Shown piece by piece: positions 23,683 through 64,000 of a DNA stretch of 64,000 nucleotides. Each line of letters opens with the position of its first letter. The stretch's first letter is position 1. The DNA comes from Crassaminicella thermophila (GTDB lineage: Bacteria; Bacillota; Clostridia; Peptostreptococcales; Thermotaleaceae). A program made the position numbers and the translations under genes. Location of the stretch: positions 2,361,026 to 2,425,025 of the forward strand of contig NZ_CP042243.1 of NCBI RefSeq assembly GCF_008152325.1, in the 5' to 3' direction. Below the pieces are notes generated by a model, which was not told where the DNA came from, made no database searches, and saw nothing but the letters and a program-made list of their open reading frames with translations.

Positions 23683-23838
23683 ATCTCTTATCCAGAGAGG
23701 TGGAGGGACTGGCCCTATGAAACCCGGCAACCGGCTTTTTATAAAGCAGCGGTGCCAATTCCTGCGATACTTTTGTATCGACAGATGAGAGAGAAGCAGA
23801 AATTTTTATGCCTCTTTCTCTATGAAAGAGGCTTTTTT
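23683..23838 (+). promoter_or_regulatory. SAM-I (S-box) riboswitch with terminator
   Basis: Classic S-box core: AGAGAGGTGGAGGGACTGG, CCCTATGAAACCCGGCAACC, GCGGTGCCAATTCC and the closing GATGAGAGA that pairs with TCTCTTATC (P1). A terminator stem GCCTCTTTC/GAAAGAGGC with T6 lies at 23810-23838. When S-adenosylmethionine is bound, P1 forms and transcription ends before metN; low SAM lets the methionine importer be made. Confidence 0.96.
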
Positions 23839-54944: not shown

Positions 54945-56213
54945 CTAATCGAGCTTACTTACAAATTTACCTATATCTTTTCTATAATACATTCCATCAA
55001 AATAAATCTTTTCTACATTTTCATATGCCTTTTCTCTAGCCTCATTAATCGTATCTCCCCAAGCTGTAACTCCTAATACTCTTCCTCCATTGGTTAAAAC
55101 TTTTCCATCTACAGCTTTTGTTCCTGCATGAAATACCATTATATCTTCATCTACATCTTCTAACCCATGAATTTCCTTTTCTTTCTCGTAGCTTCCTGGG
55201 TATCCACCTGATGCAACAACAACACAAACCGCTTTTTTGTCACTCCATTTAATTCTTTTATCTTTTAATTTTCCTTCTAAAATACACTCGATAATTTCTA
55301 CTAGATCTGTTTCAAGCCTTGTTAAAACAGTCTGTGTCTCAGGATCTCCAAATCTTACATTAAACTCTAAAACTTTTGGTCCCGTTTGTGTTATCATAAG
55401 CCCAATAAAAAGAATCCCCTTAAAATCCAATCCGTCCTTTTTAAATCCTTCAATAATAGGAACAAGTATTGTTTTTTCCACTTCTTTTCTAAGCTTTTCA
55501 TCATAAATATAGCTTGGAGAATAAGTTCCCATGCCGCCCGTATTAGGTCCTTTATCTTCATCAAATACTTTTTTATAGTCCTGTGCACTTACCATAGGTA
55601 CAATACTTTCGCCATCTACAAAGCATAATATAGAAGTTTCAATACCTGTTAAATATTCTTCAATAACCACTTTTTCTCCAGCTTCTCCAAATGTTTTTTC
55701 AGCCATCATATCCTCTAAAGCTTTTATGGCTTCTTCTTCATTCTGTGCTATTACAACACCTTTTCCAGCTGCTAATCCATCTGCTTTAATAACCATAGGA
55801 TATCCATAAATACCTATGGCTTTTTTTGCTTCTTCAATATCTATAAAAGCTTCATAATTGCCTGTAGGAATATTATGCCTTATTAAAAAATCCTTAGTGA
55901 AAGCTTTGCTACCTTCTAATTGAGCACATTTTTTGTTTGGACCAAACACTACAAGACCTTCCTCTTCAAATCGATCAACAATCCCTAAAACCAAAGGAAC
56001 TTCTGGACCTACAACGGTTAAATCTATATTGTTACTTTTGGCAAAGTCACATAATCCTTCAATATCTTTAGGGTCTATATCTACAATCTCTGCCATATTA
56101 CCAATCCCTGCATTTCCAGGAGCACAATAAATTTTATCAACCCTTGGGCTTTTCCTTAACTTCCATACAATCGTATGCTCTCTACCACCACTTCCTACTA
56201 CTAATACCTTCAT
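54945..56213 (-). CDS. purD: Phosphoribosylamine--glycine ligase
   Basis: 422 residues, ATP-grasp enzyme of IMP synthesis step 2 (GAR synthetase). VLVVGSGGREHTIVWKL, PSYIYDEKLRKEVEKTI, FNVRFGDPETQTVL are diagnostic. Last gene of the pur operon. Confidence 0.97.
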   Translation of the reverse strand: MKVLVVGSGGREHTIVWKLRKSPRVDKIYCAPGNAGIGNMAEIVDIDPKDIEGLCDFAKSNNIDLTVVGPEVPLVLGIVDRFEEEGLVVFGPNKKCAQLEGSKAFTKDFLIRHNIPTGNYEAFIDIEEAKKAIGIYGYPMVIKADGLAAGKGVVIAQNEEEAIKALEDMMAEKTFGEAGEKVVIEEYLTGIETSILCFVDGESIVPMVSAQDYKKVFDEDKGPNTGGMGTYSPSYIYDEKLRKEVEKTILVPIIEGFKKDGLDFKGILFIGLMITQTGPKVLEFNVRFGDPETQTVLTRLETDLVEIIECILEGKLKDKRIKWSDKKAVCVVVASGGYPGSYEKEKEIHGLEDVDEDIMVFHAGTKAVDGKVLTNGGRVLGVTAWGDTINEAREKAYENVEKIYFDGMYYRKDIGKFVSKLD

Positions 56214-56230
56214 AAGCTACCTCCTTCCCA

Positions 56231-57772
56231 TTAATGCTTAAAATGCCTCATTCCTGTAAACACCATAGCAATGCCATATTTATTTGCCATCTCTATAGAA
56301 GCTTCATCTTTTATTGAGCCCCCTGGTTGAATAATGGCTGTAACGCCTGATTTTGCTGCTTCTTCAACACAGTCAGGAAATGGGAAAAAGGCATCTGATG
56401 CCATAACACTTCCCTTTACTGGTATATTTGATTGTTTAATTGCATTTTCTACTGCCCAAATTCTATTTACTTGCCCAGGCCCAATACCAATTGTCTGTCC
56501 TTCACGTGCTAAAACAATACCATTTGACTTAATATGTTTTACAACCTTCCAGGCAAACATTAAATCTTCCATTTCTCTTTTAGTAGGAATTCTCTCTGTA
56601 ACAACCTTTAATTCTTCTTCAACAAACAATTCATTATCAACATCTTGAATTAATAGTCCGCCATTTACTTTTTTCATATCTAATGCATTTTTAGATTGCT
56701 TCTTATTGATATTTGCTAATTTTAATATTCTTATGTTTTTCTTGGATTTTAAAATCTCCAATGCATCTTCATCATAATCTGGTGCAATCACAATCTCTAT
56801 AAAAATCTTATTTATTTCTTCTGCCGTTCTTTTATCAATTGTACGATTCATAGCAACAATTCCACCAAAAATAGAAACTGGATCACATTTATAAGCTTTT
56901 AAATAAGCATCATATATATCATATCCACTTCCTACCCCACATGCATTTGTATGCTTTACTGCAACAACTGTAGGTTCTTCATATTCTTTTAGTAGCTCTA
57001 TTGCTCCATTTGCATCATTGATATTGTTAAAGGAAAGTTCCTTTCCATGAAGCTTTATAGCATCTACCAAAGAGCCTTCATTTTTTCCAACTTCTTTATA
57101 AAATACTGCCTTTTGATGCGGATTTTCTCCATATCTTAAATCTTGTACCTTCTCAAAAGTCATTGTAAATACATCTGGTAATGGTGCATCTATTTGCTTT
57201 CTTAAATAATCTGCTATCAATGCATCATAATGTGCTGTATGCTCAAACACCCTTAGTGCCAGCTTATATTTTGTATCATAGGATACTTCCCCATTATTTT
57301 CTAATTCTTCTAATACAGAAGTATAATCATCTGGATTACATATAACAGTCACATCTTTATGATTCTTAGCAGCACTTCTTAACATTGTAGGTCCACCTAT
57401 ATCAATGTTTTCAATAGCTTCTTCTAAAGTTGCATTTTCTTTTGCTATTGTTTCTTTAAAAGGATATAAGTTGATTGCAACTAAGTCAATAGGTACTATA
57501 TTTAAATTTTCTAACTGCTTTAAATGCTCAGGATTATCTCTCATTGCTAATAATCCTCCATGTACTTTAGGATGAAGTGTCTTTACTCTTCCATCAAGAC
57601 ATTCAGGAAAACCTGTAACATCTGATATTGGAATTACTTTTACACCATTTTCAACAAGAACTTTTGCTGTTCCGCCAGTAGAAATTATTTCTACACCCAT
57701 TTCTTGCAATTTCTTTGCAAAATCAATAATTCCTCTTTTATCTGAAACACTTATTAAAGCACGTTTAATCAT
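56231..57772 (-). CDS. purH: Bifunctional AICAR formyltransferase/IMP cyclohydrolase
   Basis: About 513 residues. N-terminal MGS-like cyclohydrolase ([26 protein letters not shown]) and C-terminal transformylase ([40 protein letters not shown]). Start ATG 57772 preferred over 57778, since AGGAGG lies only two bases before the latter. Ends 17 bases before purD. Confidence 0.97.
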
Positions 57773-57783
57773 TTCCATGCCTC

Positions 57784-58407
57784 CTATTTTATTCTCACTT
57801 TTCGACCTTCTACTTTTAATTTGCCTTCAGCAAATAGCTTTATTGCCATAGGAAGAATTTCATGTTCAACTTCTAAAACTCTCTTTGACAAAGATTCTAC
57901 CGTATCATCATCCTTTACAATAACTGTTTTTTGCAAAATTACAGGCCCTGTATCAGTCCCTTCATCAACAAAATGTACAGTAGCCCCTGTCACTTTTACA
58001 CCATAATTTAGAACAGCCTCATGTACTTTTTTACCATAAAATCCCCTTCCACAAAAACTTGGTATAAGAGAAGGATGAATATTTATAATCCTATTTTTAT
58101 AACGCTGAACAATTTCTTTATCTAAAATGCTCATAAACCCTGCAAGGATAATTAAATCTATTTGTTTTTCTTCTAAAATTTCTAAAATCTTATATGTTCT
58201 TTCTGCTAAATTAGGATAATTATTTTTTCCTATATAAATTCCCTCTATCCCATGTTTTTTTCCACGTTCTAATGCATAAGCATCCTTTTTACTAGATATA
58301 ATAACTTCTATATTTCCATCTATATTACCTTTTTTTATATTATCAATAATTGCCTGAAGGTTTGTACCTCCTCCTGATACAAATACAGCAATATTTATTT
58401 TTGACAT
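57784..58407 (-). CDS. purN: Phosphoribosylglycinamide formyltransferase
   Basis: 207 residues. [15 protein letters not shown], catalytic [18 protein letters not shown] (Asn, His) and [13 protein letters not shown] (Asp). Folate-dependent GAR formylation. Starts within the purM end (13-base overlap). Confidence 0.97.
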
Positions 58408-59435
58408 AATGTCACCCCATGCTCTGAAGTAACCCTACCGATTACATAAGCTTTTTCTTCTAAACTATTAAGATATTCTATCACTTCTTGTGAATCCTTG
58501 TTAGAAACAATCATAATCATACCAATTCCCATGTTGAAAGTACTAAACATTTCTTCAGTACAGATATTTCCTAGCTTTTGAATCAATTTAAAAATAGCTA
58601 GTATATCAAAGCTTCCTAAATCTATTTCTACGCCTAGTCCTTCTGGCAGGATTCTTGGAATATTTTCATAAAATCCTCCACCTGTCATGTGGACCATTCC
58701 CTTTACTTTATATTTTTTCATAACTTTACTACAAACATCTACATATATCCTAGTAGGCTTTATAAGTTCTTCTCCTAAAGTACATCCTAACTCTTCTATA
58801 TATCTATCTATCTTATAGCCTAATGTTTCAAAAAACAGCTTTCGTACCAATGAATATCCATTACTATGAATTCCACTAGAAGGTAGCCCGATTAATACAT
58901 CTCCTTCTTCAATGTCTGACCCATCAATAATTTTTTCTTTATCTACAATTCCTACTGCAAAGCCTGCCATGTCATACTCTCCTTCTTCATAAAAGCCTGG
59001 CATTTCTGCAGTCTCTCCTCCAATAAGTGCACACTGTGCTTTTATACATCCATCTGATATACCCTTTACAATGTCTGCTATCTTTTCAGATTTTAGTTTT
59101 CCTGTTGCAACATAATCTAAAAAAAACAAAGGCTTTGCTCCTTGACATAAAATATCATTTACACACATTGCTACGCAATCTTGTCCTACCGTATCATGTT
59201 TATTCATTAAAAAAGCTATCTTTAGCTTTGTTCCTACTCCATCTGTTCCAGATACCAATACAGGCTTTTTAATTCCTTCTAAATCTAGTTCAAAAAGTCC
59301 TCCAAATCCACCTAAACCACATAGTACGTTTTTGGTAAATGTTTTTTGAACATGCTCCTTCATAAGTGTAACAGCTCTTGCTCCCTCAGAAACGTCTACA
59401 CCAGCATCTTTATAAGTTAGTGATTGTTTTTCCAT
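58395..59435 (-). CDS. purM: Phosphoribosylformylglycinamidine cyclo-ligase
   Basis: 346 residues: [59 protein letters not shown] synthetase of the same pathway. Twelve bases after purF. Confidence 0.97.
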
Positions 59436-59446
59436 AGTATCCTCCT

Positions 59447-60862
59447 CTATCTTTTCTCAAATAGATATTTGTTCCCTTGTTTTGGAACTTCCATTGGATA
59501 ATCTCCACTAAAACAAGCTGTACATAAACTGCATCCTTCCATGCTGGTTGATTTTATAAGCCCCTCTATACTTAAATAACCTAAGCTATCTGCACCAATC
59601 ATTTTCCTTATTTCTTCTACGGAATGAACTGCTCCTACTAAATTTTTTCTTGTTGGTGTATCTATACCAAAATAGCAAGAATACTTTACAGGCGGAGAAC
59701 ATACTCTTACATGAACTTCTTTTGCTCCTGCTGATTTTAATAAATCGACAATCTGCTTGCTCGTTGTTCCCCTAACTATAGAATCATCAACCATTATCAA
59801 TCTTTTTCCTTTTATATTATCCTTTAGTACATTTAGCTTTAATCTTACACTTCTTTCTCTCATTCTTTGATCTGGCTGTATAAATGTTCTGCCTACGTAT
59901 CTATTTTTTATAAGTCCTTCTCCAAAAGGAATTTTTGATTCTTGTGCATATCCAATAGCTGCAACAGTTCCAGAATCTGGAACAGCAATAACTAAATCTG
60001 CTTCTACTGGATGTTCCTTAGCTAGCATTTTTCCTGCATTTCTTCTGCTTACATATACGCTTTGTCCATCTAGTACACTATCAGGTCTTGCAAAATAGAC
60101 AAATTCAAAAGAACACAATGCTCTTTTCATATTTTCTGCATATCTTATACTTTTAATCTTATAATTCTCAATAATAACAATTTCACCTGGTTCAACATCT
60201 CTTACAAACTCTGCACCTATTACATTAAACGCACAACTTTCTGAAGATAATACATATCCTCCATCAATTTTTCCTATGCATAATGGCCTAAGTCCATGAG
60301 GATCTCTAACACCAATAAGCTTATCTTTATAGGTAATAGCAAGCGCATAAGATCCTCTAATTTGATCCATTGTTTCCTTTATTGCATTTTCTATTCCTAA
60401 TTTGTGATGTCTAGCAATCATATTTGCAATCACTTCACTGTCAATAGAAGTTTGAAAGATAACCCCTTGATCTTCCAATGCTTCTCTAATTTCATTAGCG
60501 TTTACAAGATTCCCATTATGGGCAAGTGCTATTGCCCCACCTTTATGGTGTACTACTAAAGGTTGAGCATTTGCTACATAACTTTCTCCAGTAGTAGAAT
60601 ATCTTACATGCCCTATGGCAATGTCTCCTTGAAGTCTCTCAATAATTTGATCAGAAAATACTTCTTGAACCAGTCCCATTTCCTTATAATAGTGAATTTC
60701 CCCATTTTTATTTGCAGCGATTCCTGCACTTTCTTGCCCTCTATGCTGAAGAGAATGTAGTCCAAAATAGGCCAATTGTGATATATTATCTATTCCTGGT
60801 GCATAAATGCCTATGATTCCACACTCCTCTTTTAATTTATCAAAATTTATTGTATTATACAT
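59447..60862 (-). CDS. purF: Amidophosphoribosyltransferase
   Basis: 471 residues. Glutaminase N-terminal Cys14 in EECGIIGIY after a short propeptide; PRPP site [17 protein letters not shown]-terminal cysteines [15 protein letters not shown] typical of the [4Fe-4S] PurF of Bacillus type. First committed step of purine synthesis and the one that consumes PRPP. Confidence 0.97.
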
Positions 60863-60885
60863 GGTTACCTCCTAAAGGTTATCCC

Positions 60886-61590
60886 TTATTTTTCAAGTCT
60901 TTCTAAAACTTCTTGGTAAGTTTTTTCTACATCTCCTAAATCTCTTCTGAATCTATCTTTATCCATTTTTTTGTTTGTTTCTACATCCCATAATCTGCAA
61001 GTATCTGGCGAAATTTCATCAGCCAAAATCACTTTACCATCGAAAACACCAAATTCTAATTTAAAATCAATTAATTTCATTCCTCTTTCAAGAAAATATT
61101 CCTTTAGTATTTCATTTATTTTAAAAGCATATTTTTTCACAACTTCAACTTGCTCTTTAGTTGCTAATTCTATAGCTTCAATATGATAATCATTAATCAT
61201 CGGATCTCCTAATTCATCATTTTTATAACAAAATTCTAAAACTGTTGTTTTCATTTCAGTTCCTTCAGCAACACCTAGTCGCTTTGCAAGAGACCCTGCA
61301 GCTACATTTCTAACAATCACTTCAATAGGAAGTATTTTTACTGCCTTTACTAATGATTCTCTATCACTTAATAGTTCTTCAAAATGAGTAGGAACCCCTT
61401 TTTCTTCTAAAATTTTAAATAATACTGCTGACATTTTATTATTCACAATTCCTTTATCTTCAATTGTCCCTTTCTTTACACCATTAAATGCTGTTGCATC
61501 ATCTTTATATTCTACAATATATTTTTTTTCATCATCCGTTTTATATACTTTCTTTGCTTTTCCTTCATATAACATTTCTAATTTTTTCAT
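60886..61590 (-). CDS. purC: SAICAR synthetase
   Basis: About 234 residues from ATG 61590 (AGGAAATTAAT upstream), matching the usual opening [22 protein letters not shown]-binding and substrate motifs [19 protein letters not shown] and [24 protein letters not shown] are kept. A TTG extension to 61608 is less likely. Confidence 0.97.
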
Positions 61591-61610
61591 ATTAATTTCC
61601 TCCCTCAATT

Positions 61611-62093
61611 TTATCGATTTAAAAATCCTTCATCTTTTTTTATAACTTCTTTTTCTTGAAGTTCTCTAAATGCTTTTAATTTTTCTCTCAACTCTGGATA
61701 CTTAACAGATAATATTTGAATAGCAAGAAGTGCTGCATTTTCTGCTCCATTTATTGCTACTGTTGCTACAGGTATTCCCTTTGGCATTTGAACAATAGAT
61801 AAAAGAGAATCTAATCCATCCATTGTTGAAGATTTTATTGGCAATCCTATAACAGGTAGTACTGTTAAACTTGCTAATACTCCTGGAAGATGTGCAGCCT
61901 TTCCAGCAGCACCTATAATTACTTCAAATCCGTTTTCTTCTGCATTTTTTGCAAACTCCATGGCACGATTTGGTGTTCTATGGGCAGATATCACCCTAAC
62001 TTGTACTTCTATACCAAAATCCTTTAAAATTTTTTCACCCTTTTCAACAACATTATAATCTGAATCACTTCCCATAATAATTGCAACCTTCAT
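61611..62093 (-). CDS. purE: N5-CAIR mutase, PurE class I
   Basis: 160 residues: [54 protein letters not shown]. No purK follows, so carboxylation may proceed without PurK or its gene is elsewhere. First gene of the pur operon; strong GGAGGG before ATG. Confidence 0.96.
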
Positions 62094-62211: not shown

Positions 62212-62249
62212 AAAAAAAACCCGATATAGACTTCATCATCTATTTCGGG
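62212..62249 (-). terminator. Terminator after NCS2 permease gene
   Basis: CCCGAAATA/TATATCGGG stem with T8 following on the minus strand, ten bases after the permease stop. Confidence 0.9.
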
Positions 62250-62258
62250 CTATTTAGT

Positions 62259-63593
62259 TTAACTAGCTATATGCTTTAATATAAACAGCACTGCAATAAC
62301 ATACATCATTGGATGTACTTCATCTGATCTTTTTGCTAGAACTTTTAATAGTACATAAGAAATCACACCAAAAACAAGTCCTTCTGCAATGCTATAAGTT
62401 AAAGGCATCATAATAATTGTTAAAAATGCTGGAATGGCTTCTGTAAAATCTTCAAAATTTATTTTTAATATTGGACTAATCATAAATAATCCTACTAAAA
62501 TCAGTACTGCTGAAGTAGCTTGCGGTGGAACAGCTGTAAATAGTGGAGCAAATACTACAGAAGCTAAGAATAACACTCCAGTTGTAAGCGCTGTAAGTCC
62601 TGTTCTTCCACCCTCTGCAACACCAGATGCACTTTCAACATAAGTTGTAACAGTACTTGTTCCCATCATAGATCCCACAGTCGTACCAATAGCATCTGCA
62701 AATAAAGCTTGTTTTGCCTTAGGCAATTTCCCTTCATCATCAATCATATCTGCTTTTGTAGCAACACCAATTAATGTTCCTAATGTATCAAATAAATCTA
62801 CAAATAAGAAAGTAAATACAACCACTACCATATTCCATGATAAAATTTCATTCATTCCGACAAACTTGAAAAAGATTGGTTTTATAGATGGCGGTACGCT
62901 GACAATTGTAGCAGGGATTGCTGTTTTCCCAATCACCATACCCCCAACTGTCGTAAGAATCATACCAATTAACAAAGCACCTTTTACATTCTTTACAAGT
63001 AATATTCCTGTTACAATAATTCCAACTAATGCCAATAACACCCCAGGATCTTTTACATTTCCTAATCCTACTAAAACAGCATCATTATTTACAATAATTC
63101 CAGCACTTTGAAATCCTATAAAAGCAATAAATAATCCAATCCCAACGCTTACTGCATTTTTAATCACCATAGGCATTCCATTAATAATTGCCTCACGAAC
63201 ATTTGTTAAGGTAAGTACTATAAATATAAGTCCTTCAATTAATACTGCGGTTAAAGCAAATTGCCAGCTATATCCCATTCCAATACAAACTGAAAACGCA
63301 AAGAATGCATTTAATCCCATACCTGGTGCTAATGCAAATGGCAGATTTGCCATAAATGCCATCAAAAATGTAGCAAATGCTGCTGAAAGAGCAGTAGCAG
63401 TAAATACAGCTCCTTTATCCATTCCTGTAGCACTTAAAATATCTGGATTAACAATAAGAATATAGGCCATCGTCATAAATGTTGTAATACCAGCAATAAT
63501 TTCAGTTTTTACATTAGTTTTTTTCTCTGAAAGCTTAAATAAATTTTCAAGCACTCCTGATTTTGATTTTTTGTTTGTAATTTCCAATTTCAT
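62259..63593 (-). CDS. pbuG: NCS2/AzgA-family purine permease (hypoxanthine/guanine type)
   Basis: About 444 residues with 12 or more helices. EIIAGITTFMTMAYILIVNPDIL, GMGLNAFFAFSVCIGMGYSW, LFVDLFDTLGTLIGVATKADMID and TVTTYVESASGVAEGGRTGLTAL are AzgA/PbuG motifs. True start is ATG 63593 (GGAGGAG before it); an open frame further up runs through the riboswitch and is not coding. Imports hypoxanthine or guanine. Confidence 0.93.
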   Translation of the reverse strand: MKLEITNKKSKSGVLENLFKLSEKKTNVKTEIIAGITTFMTMAYILIVNPDILSATGMDKGAVFTATALSAAFATFLMAFMANLPFALAPGMGLNAFFAFSVCIGMGYSWQFALTAVLIEGLIFIVLTLTNVREAIINGMPMVIKNAVSVGIGLFIAFIGFQSAGIIVNNDAVLVGLGNVKDPGVLLALVGIIVTGILLVKNVKGALLIGMILTTVGGMVIGKTAIPATIVSVPPSIKPIFFKFVGMNEILSWNMVVVVFTFLFVDLFDTLGTLIGVATKADMIDDEGKLPKAKQALFADAIGTTVGSMMGTSTVTTYVESASGVAEGGRTGLTALTTGVLFLASVVFAPLFTAVPPQATSAVLILVGLFMISPILKINFEDFTEAIPAFLTIIMMPLTYSIAEGLVFGVISYVLLKVLAKRSDEVHPMMYVIAVLFILKHIAS

Positions 63594-63626
63594 CTCCTCC
63601 TTTTGTTTTGGGGATTTTTCTATATT

Positions 63627-63692
63627 CACAAAAACGAAAGCCCGGATGGGAAGGTTTGTACTCATAAGTGAAACCTCCCCGTCCGGGCTTTT
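63627..63692 (-). terminator. Intrinsic terminator of riboswitch expression platform
   Basis: Long stem AAAGCCCGGACGGGGAGGTTT with its near-complement AAACCTTCCCATCCGGGCTTT, then CGTTTTTG. Its 5' arm shares bases with the last PRPP-aptamer strand GCCCGG, so ligand binding can block it. Confidence 0.88.
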
Positions 63693-63772
63693 ATCCCCAC
63701 GGTGTAGTATTACATACTGCAATACTCGTATCACTTGGACCAGACGCAAAACAGCCGGAACCCTAGATACGC
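63672..63772 (-). promoter_or_regulatory. ykkC subtype-2 riboswitch, PRPP-type
   Basis: Minus strand shows the ykkC core: CTAGGGTTCCGG, GTCTGGTCCAAG, then CTACACCGTGGGGATAAAAG leading into CCCGG. Known ykkC subtypes bind guanidine, ppGpp or PRPP. Its place directly behind a guanine aptamer, before a purine permease, is that of PRPP riboswitches. High PRPP would turn expression on by preventing the terminator. Confidence 0.85.
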
Positions 63773-63775
63773 TTT

Positions 63776-63848
63776 CACCCATAGTCAGGCAATTTACGGT
63801 TGCCTGGTAGAGACTTTCGGACCCTATTACCGAAATTATATGAGTAGA
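63776..63848 (-). promoter_or_regulatory. Guanine-type purine riboswitch aptamer
   Basis: Minus-strand pattern: TCATATAATTTCGGTAATAG, GGGTCCGAAAGTCTCTACC, AGGCAACCGTAAATTGCCTG, ACTATG. The C in GACTATG (position 74 by convention) gives guanine/hypoxanthine specificity; adenine riboswitches have T there. P1 pairs CTCAT with ATGGG. Confidence 0.93.
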
Positions 63849-63884: not shown

Positions 63885-63913
63885 ATCATATCAAAGTCAC
63901 TTTTTTTAGTCAA
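63885..63913 (-). promoter_or_regulatory. Sigma-A promoter for tandem riboswitch and NCS2 permease
   Basis: Minus-strand TTGACT (63913-63908), 17-base spacer, TATGAT (63890-63885); start near 63878, 30 bases before the guanine aptamer. Confidence 0.8.
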
Positions 63914-64000
63914 TAGCTTTTCGAATGTTTTTGTTTTTATTTTTAAATTAATTTGTATAAACACGAACATTAAGCCTTTTTATTTGTTTTATAATTCCTG

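Follow-up and report, generated by a model that had tools for sequence, protein, structure and literature searches.

A guanine–PRPP tandem riboswitch predicted to gate a purine permease ahead of the pur genes of Crassaminicella thermophila

Riboswitches in which a guanine aptamer and a PRPP aptamer stand in tandem have been counted at 127 loci in 2018 (PMC5912903) and 192 in 2022 (PMC9481103), and such a tandem has been validated in vitro and in vivo as an IMPLY gate at a locus other than the one described here (PMC5912903, Sherlock 2018). A mechanism in which the P0 helix of the PRPP aptamer and the P1 helix of the guanine aptamer exclude each other was proposed from a crystal structure (PMC6031431), and was described as not yet established both in 2018 (PMC5912903) and in 2022 (PMC9481103).

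Here we analyse a tandem at the right end, and on the minus strand, of a 64,000-nucleotide stretch of C. thermophila DNA (the window). It resembles the B. megaterium codA IMPLY gate (PMC5912903) in the order of its aptamers, the closeness of the P1 helices, its occurrence in Firmicutes and the single terminator overlapping the 3' end of the PRPP aptamer, and the T. mathranii tandem (PMC6031431) in P0, the pyrimidine at position 49, G96, the C75–G96 pair and a P0 proposed to be exclusive with guanine P1. In contrast with the published targets of the IMPLY gate, which are the de novo genes up to IMP together with codA (PMC5912903), the first gene in the window encodes an importer. The word 'permease' is absent from the main text of PMC5912903, and no description of a guanine–PRPP tandem before a permease was found in the literature, although supplementary alignments, which lay outside the search, may hold such loci. 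The kind of switch is already known, while purine import as its target was not found described; this locus carries the gate beyond de novo purine genes, to a purine importer, and is relevant to the view put forward in the literature that what the gate serves is synthesis as far as IMP and then AMP. The B. subtilis hypoxanthine/guanine permease gene pbuG, like the present permease gene, carries a guanine riboswitch. It is under PurR (PMC8789054), and the present locus, which adds a PRPP aptamer, possibly also has PurR boxes.

Two aptamers and one terminator in series

The original prediction, two different aptamers and one terminator in series over 63627–63848, is borne out by Rfam matches on the minus strand and by folding of the hairpin, and its span agrees with the coordinates obtained for the aptamers and the terminator:

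63776–63846, minus strand: guanine aptamer (Rfam Purine), with P1 formed by 63846–63839 and 63783–63776
63667–63779, minus strand: PRPP aptamer (ykkC subtype 2b), from Rfam, alignment, subtype marks and fold
63776–63779, minus strand: strand common to guanine P1 and PRPP P0 (GGUG), from three-strand covariation and fold
63630–63691, minus strand: single shared intrinsic terminator, with arms 63691–63671 and 63657–63637 and U-run 63634–63630

The first match (63863–63762) is to Purine RF00167 (94.5 bits, E 3e-16, gathering score 37) and the second, of ykkC type (63777–63678), to Guanidine-I RF00442 (65.4 bits, E 2e-9, gathering score 63). A C at position 74 marks guanine riboswitches and a U adenine riboswitches; as read from the sequence, the equivalent of C74 lies at 63784 (GACUA), which is the guanine type, and that of U51 at 63809. 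The spacing between guanine P1 and PRPP P1 is 4 nt (5 without the last P1 U–G pair), which is at the lower limit of the 5–7 nt typical of described tandems and, being so small, leaves no space for a terminator between the aptamers; the one terminator overlaps the PRPP aptamer, as is also expected of a tandem.

The tandem aptamer is the only ykkC-model match in the whole genome, which holds three purine aptamers beyond the tandem's. One of these stands 5' of a guaB ORF (named from sequence), and another, a lone aptamer, stands 5' of a second permease 49% identical to the tandem's, so that, judging from the adjoining ORFs, the tandem would serve this permease, its paralogue having a guanine aptamer alone. 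Elsewhere in the window, Rfam also identifies a SAM-I riboswitch (23685–23791, plus strand, 97.5 bits).

Shared strand and proposed gate

In the window, P0 consists of six pairs between GGUGAA (63779–63774) and UUCACU (63672–63667), and the GGUG with which it begins doubles as the final four bases of the 3' strand of guanine P1 (63783–63776). A 30-pair model including P0, applied to 31 sequences, has 96.2% of its cells paired and 16 pairs changed on both sides (four of six within P0), with a covariation score of 0.362 versus 0.167 when shuffled and at most 0.131 when strands were slid.

Three bases (guanine P1 5' strand, shared strand, P0 3' strand) were then compared in each of 51 tandems, a set in which the window's relatives are over-represented and which includes two edits made by hand, to the P1 strand register of L060 and to the P0 tail of L057, which is one base short. 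Both pairings are kept at shared position 5 in all 51, including L060, where C-G-C has become T-A-T and both pairings are retained. At shared position 6 both are kept in 46 of 51 (shuffled mean 31.8, with none of 20000 shuffles as high), in the states A-T-A, G-C-G and C-G-C, these counts being of sequences rather than independent events and G-C-G lying mostly within one clade; three separate changes can be made out at the least. Over the 51 tandems the shared bases keep both pairings, with compensation across three strands, which fits the mutual-exclusion model. The comparison lends evolutionary support to this mechanism, and names the exact bases to mutate, 63779–63776, with partners within 63846–63839 and 63672–63667.

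The terminator hairpin (−34.3 kcal/mol) includes, from the PRPP aptamer, the 3' strand of P3, G96 and the first part of the 3' strand of P0, and a hairpin with a U-run overlapping the aptamer end is found in 48 of the 51 tandems; a simple terminator scan missed the leader hairpin because its loop is longer than the scan permits. Since strands are shared, P1 would compete with P0, and P0 with P3 against the terminator. In ViennaRNA folds of the unliganded full leader, the terminator state (−84.1 and −87.9) is favoured over P0 plus P3 (−66.0) by about 18–22 kcal/mol, ligand and tertiary energies being outside the calculation, and the ON state would therefore need ligand or kinetics. A prefix of 215 nt, ending just before the terminator 3' arm, folds into the P0 junction and neighbouring prefixes do not; in these predicted prefix folds, the outcome before termination is close.

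Taken with the ligand assignment discussed below, this arrangement very probably constitutes a guanine–PRPP IMPLY gate on permease transcription, which may spill over into the pur genes. Guanine would close P1 and so take the GGUG strand from P0, weakening the PRPP aptamer and leaving its 3' side free for the terminator (OFF). PRPP, by holding P0 and P3, would occupy the terminator 5' arm and let transcription go on (ON), a state expected to hold even when guanine is there.

Promoter, permease and pur genes

The gate stands between an upstream promoter region and a series of purine genes:

63964–63970, minus strand: upstream box 1, ATGTTCG, a candidate operator half, conserved in relatives
63922–63928, minus strand: upstream box 2, ACATTCG, ending 8 nt short of the -35 TTGAC
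63885–63913, minus strand: promoter TTGACT-17-TATGAT, with TG before the -10 and 10/12 consensus matches
62259–63587, minus strand: NCS2/AzgA-type purine permease (PF00860 Xan_ur_permease), with AGGAGG at 63602–63597
62212–62251, minus strand: terminator-like hairpin between permease and purE (−16.4 kcal/mol, eight T)
54945–62093, minus strand: purE-purC-purF-purM-purN-purH-purD, ORFs named from sequence

The downstream gene had been called a purine permease, in agreement with its PF00860 match and with its solved relatives in the PDB, the AZG1/AZG2 adenine/guanine permeases (E 2e-71). Translation probably starts at TTG 63587 rather than at the in-frame ATG 63593, since relatives have ATG at the former position. 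The pur genes had likewise been placed beyond the permease and one terminator, and the purE-D ORFs do come next, with the hairpin 62251–62212 between. Among the 51 tandems, in a sample weighted toward the window's relatives, the first gene is a permease in 27, purC in 10, purL in 8 and purE in 3, the permease being the commonest; attachment of the tandem to a purine importer seems common in related bacteria, where pur genes often come after the permease.

Two readings of the link to these pur genes have to be weighed. The gate may act on the permease only, with purE-D transcribed from a promoter of its own and regulated elsewhere, an explanation to which we give somewhat less than an even chance. 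It draws on the strength of the hairpin at 62251–62212 with its eight T, and on the 118 nt of AT-rich DNA left between this intercistronic terminator and purE; however, the promoter match in these 118 nt is weak and no better than in shuffles of the region. In every same-family relative for which this gap was examined, the permease and the following pur gene are separated by a terminator-like hairpin, which is conserved across the family (62251–62212 in the window, and L105–L116); in several other families the gap holds hairpins that differ in sequence. Three relatives with this arrangement (L115, L028 and L029) leave only 27–35 nt from U-run to next start codon, too short a gap for a promoter, which argues against separate transcription, and three others (L035, L032 and L020) lack a hairpin after the permease, their genes almost touching. 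We therefore favour, as plausible, the reading that transcripts begun at the tandem promoter partly terminate and partly run on into the pur genes.

A similar promoter occurs in the same place in same-family tandems, preceded by the two boxes. In 18 listed loci, which count the window once and one genome twice and hence represent 16–17 relatives, box 1 and box 2 are 38–39 nt apart and box 2 lies 8–9 nt from TTGAC. The boxes are in direct orientation, with 42 bp (about four helical turns) from TTCG to TTCG, and the same pattern with the same spacing has two further matches elsewhere in the genome, among whose predicted proteins is a member of the B. subtilis PurR family (391.7 bits). In B. subtilis, PRPP relieves repression by PurR, whose CGAA/TTCG boxes lie 5' of the -35, pbuG being one of the targets; those boxes, however, are inverted, with a spacer of 16–17 bp (PMC8789054). 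Because the boxes in the window point the same way, PurR is a mere candidate binder here; the conserved two-box element is possibly an operator. An extension that we regard as rather unlikely is that PRPP is read twice per transcript, by a PurR-type repressor at the two-box operator and by the aptamer, the decision reaching the de novo pathway through a leaky terminator at reduced strength; if true, import and synthesis would be kept in a fixed ratio.

Ligand class of the second aptamer and variant loci

Within the ykkC aptamers, a pyrimidine at position 49 sets subtype 2 apart from guanidine aptamers and G96 sets PRPP apart from ppGpp aptamers (PMC6031431). A DNA pattern was used to gather relatives from named genomes (42 loci); 31 aptamers, the window's included, were aligned and made into a covariance model, and searching 59 relatives plus 391 genomes from the class with it gave 109 matches that were compared for subtype marks. 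As the covariance alignment alone is misleading at position 96, placing a G there in ppGpp-type relatives too, this position was counted ungapped from the conserved AG, which corrected the branched-chain group and, not fully, the natA group.

The window carries U at 63733 (position 49) and G at 63683 (position 96), the latter paired with C75 in a C75–G96 pair invariant across the 31 aligned aptamers. By the ungapped count, all 74 relatives that stand before pur genes or the permease carry G96, and 72 of them have a pyrimidine at 49. In contrast, the eight relatives before branched-chain amino-acid genes all have C or T and never G at 96, the four before small guanidine-type exporters all have A49, and in the four natA-type (ppGpp) relatives the position-96 register is ambiguous by one base. 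The second aptamer thus bears both published PRPP-subtype marks together with a covarying P0 and the architecture of the validated gate, in accordance with the original assignment to PRPP; guanidine and ppGpp, the ligands whose binding had been named as what would overturn it, are both spoken against by these marks.

A tandem of guanine with ppGpp, the second aptamer being a subtype 2a sensor, deserves consideration in that a single base (G96A) can be the whole difference between ppGpp and PRPP aptamers (PMC6031431), but subtype 2a lacks the G at 96 that is found here pairing with the invariant C, and the context consists of purine genes, neither branched-chain amino-acid genes nor natA; we consider it very unlikely. 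We hold it just as improbable that the second aptamer is a relic serving merely as expression platform for the guanine aptamer: one same-family locus (L070) has lost the PRPP core yet kept the P0 strands and terminator, whereas the window's aptamer keeps all residues invariant in the other aligned aptamers and scores 114.6 bits against the purpose-built model, the window being itself in the alignment and one of the 31 sequences from which the model was built. Least likely of all, and hardly credible, is a guanine–guanidine tandem as the Rfam label would have it, since the 65.4 bits behind this name barely exceed the gathering threshold (63), a U stands at position 49 in place of the A of relatives before guanidine exporters, P0 tails are there and covary, and no guanidine exporter is among the downstream genes; the name Guanidine-I was dropped on position 49 and gene context.

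Several relatives depart from the arrangement seen in the window. Some Tissierellia-type loci (L016, L017, L020, L030, L032 and L035) have a pair of PRPP-type aptamers in a span of a few kilobases, the one preceding purC-like or permease genes and the other purL or purE, and some of these copies have no recognisable guanine aptamer. In same-family genera, five loci (L063, L065, L066, L067 and L068; aptamers at about 1500–1685) carry an insert of about 70 nt in the P1b hairpin of the PRPP aptamer, with conserved GTAGAA and TGGGCATAATA-like stretches despite differing flanking stems; an Rfam search of these long inserts gave nothing beyond the two aptamers and chance-level matches, and the insert is possibly an extra structural or sensing element. 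Finally, L070 (1417–1609) has a guanine aptamer of 88.3 bits followed by the coreless PRPP aptamer and stands before a different permease-like gene, apparently representing a tandem that is reverting to a single guanine switch.
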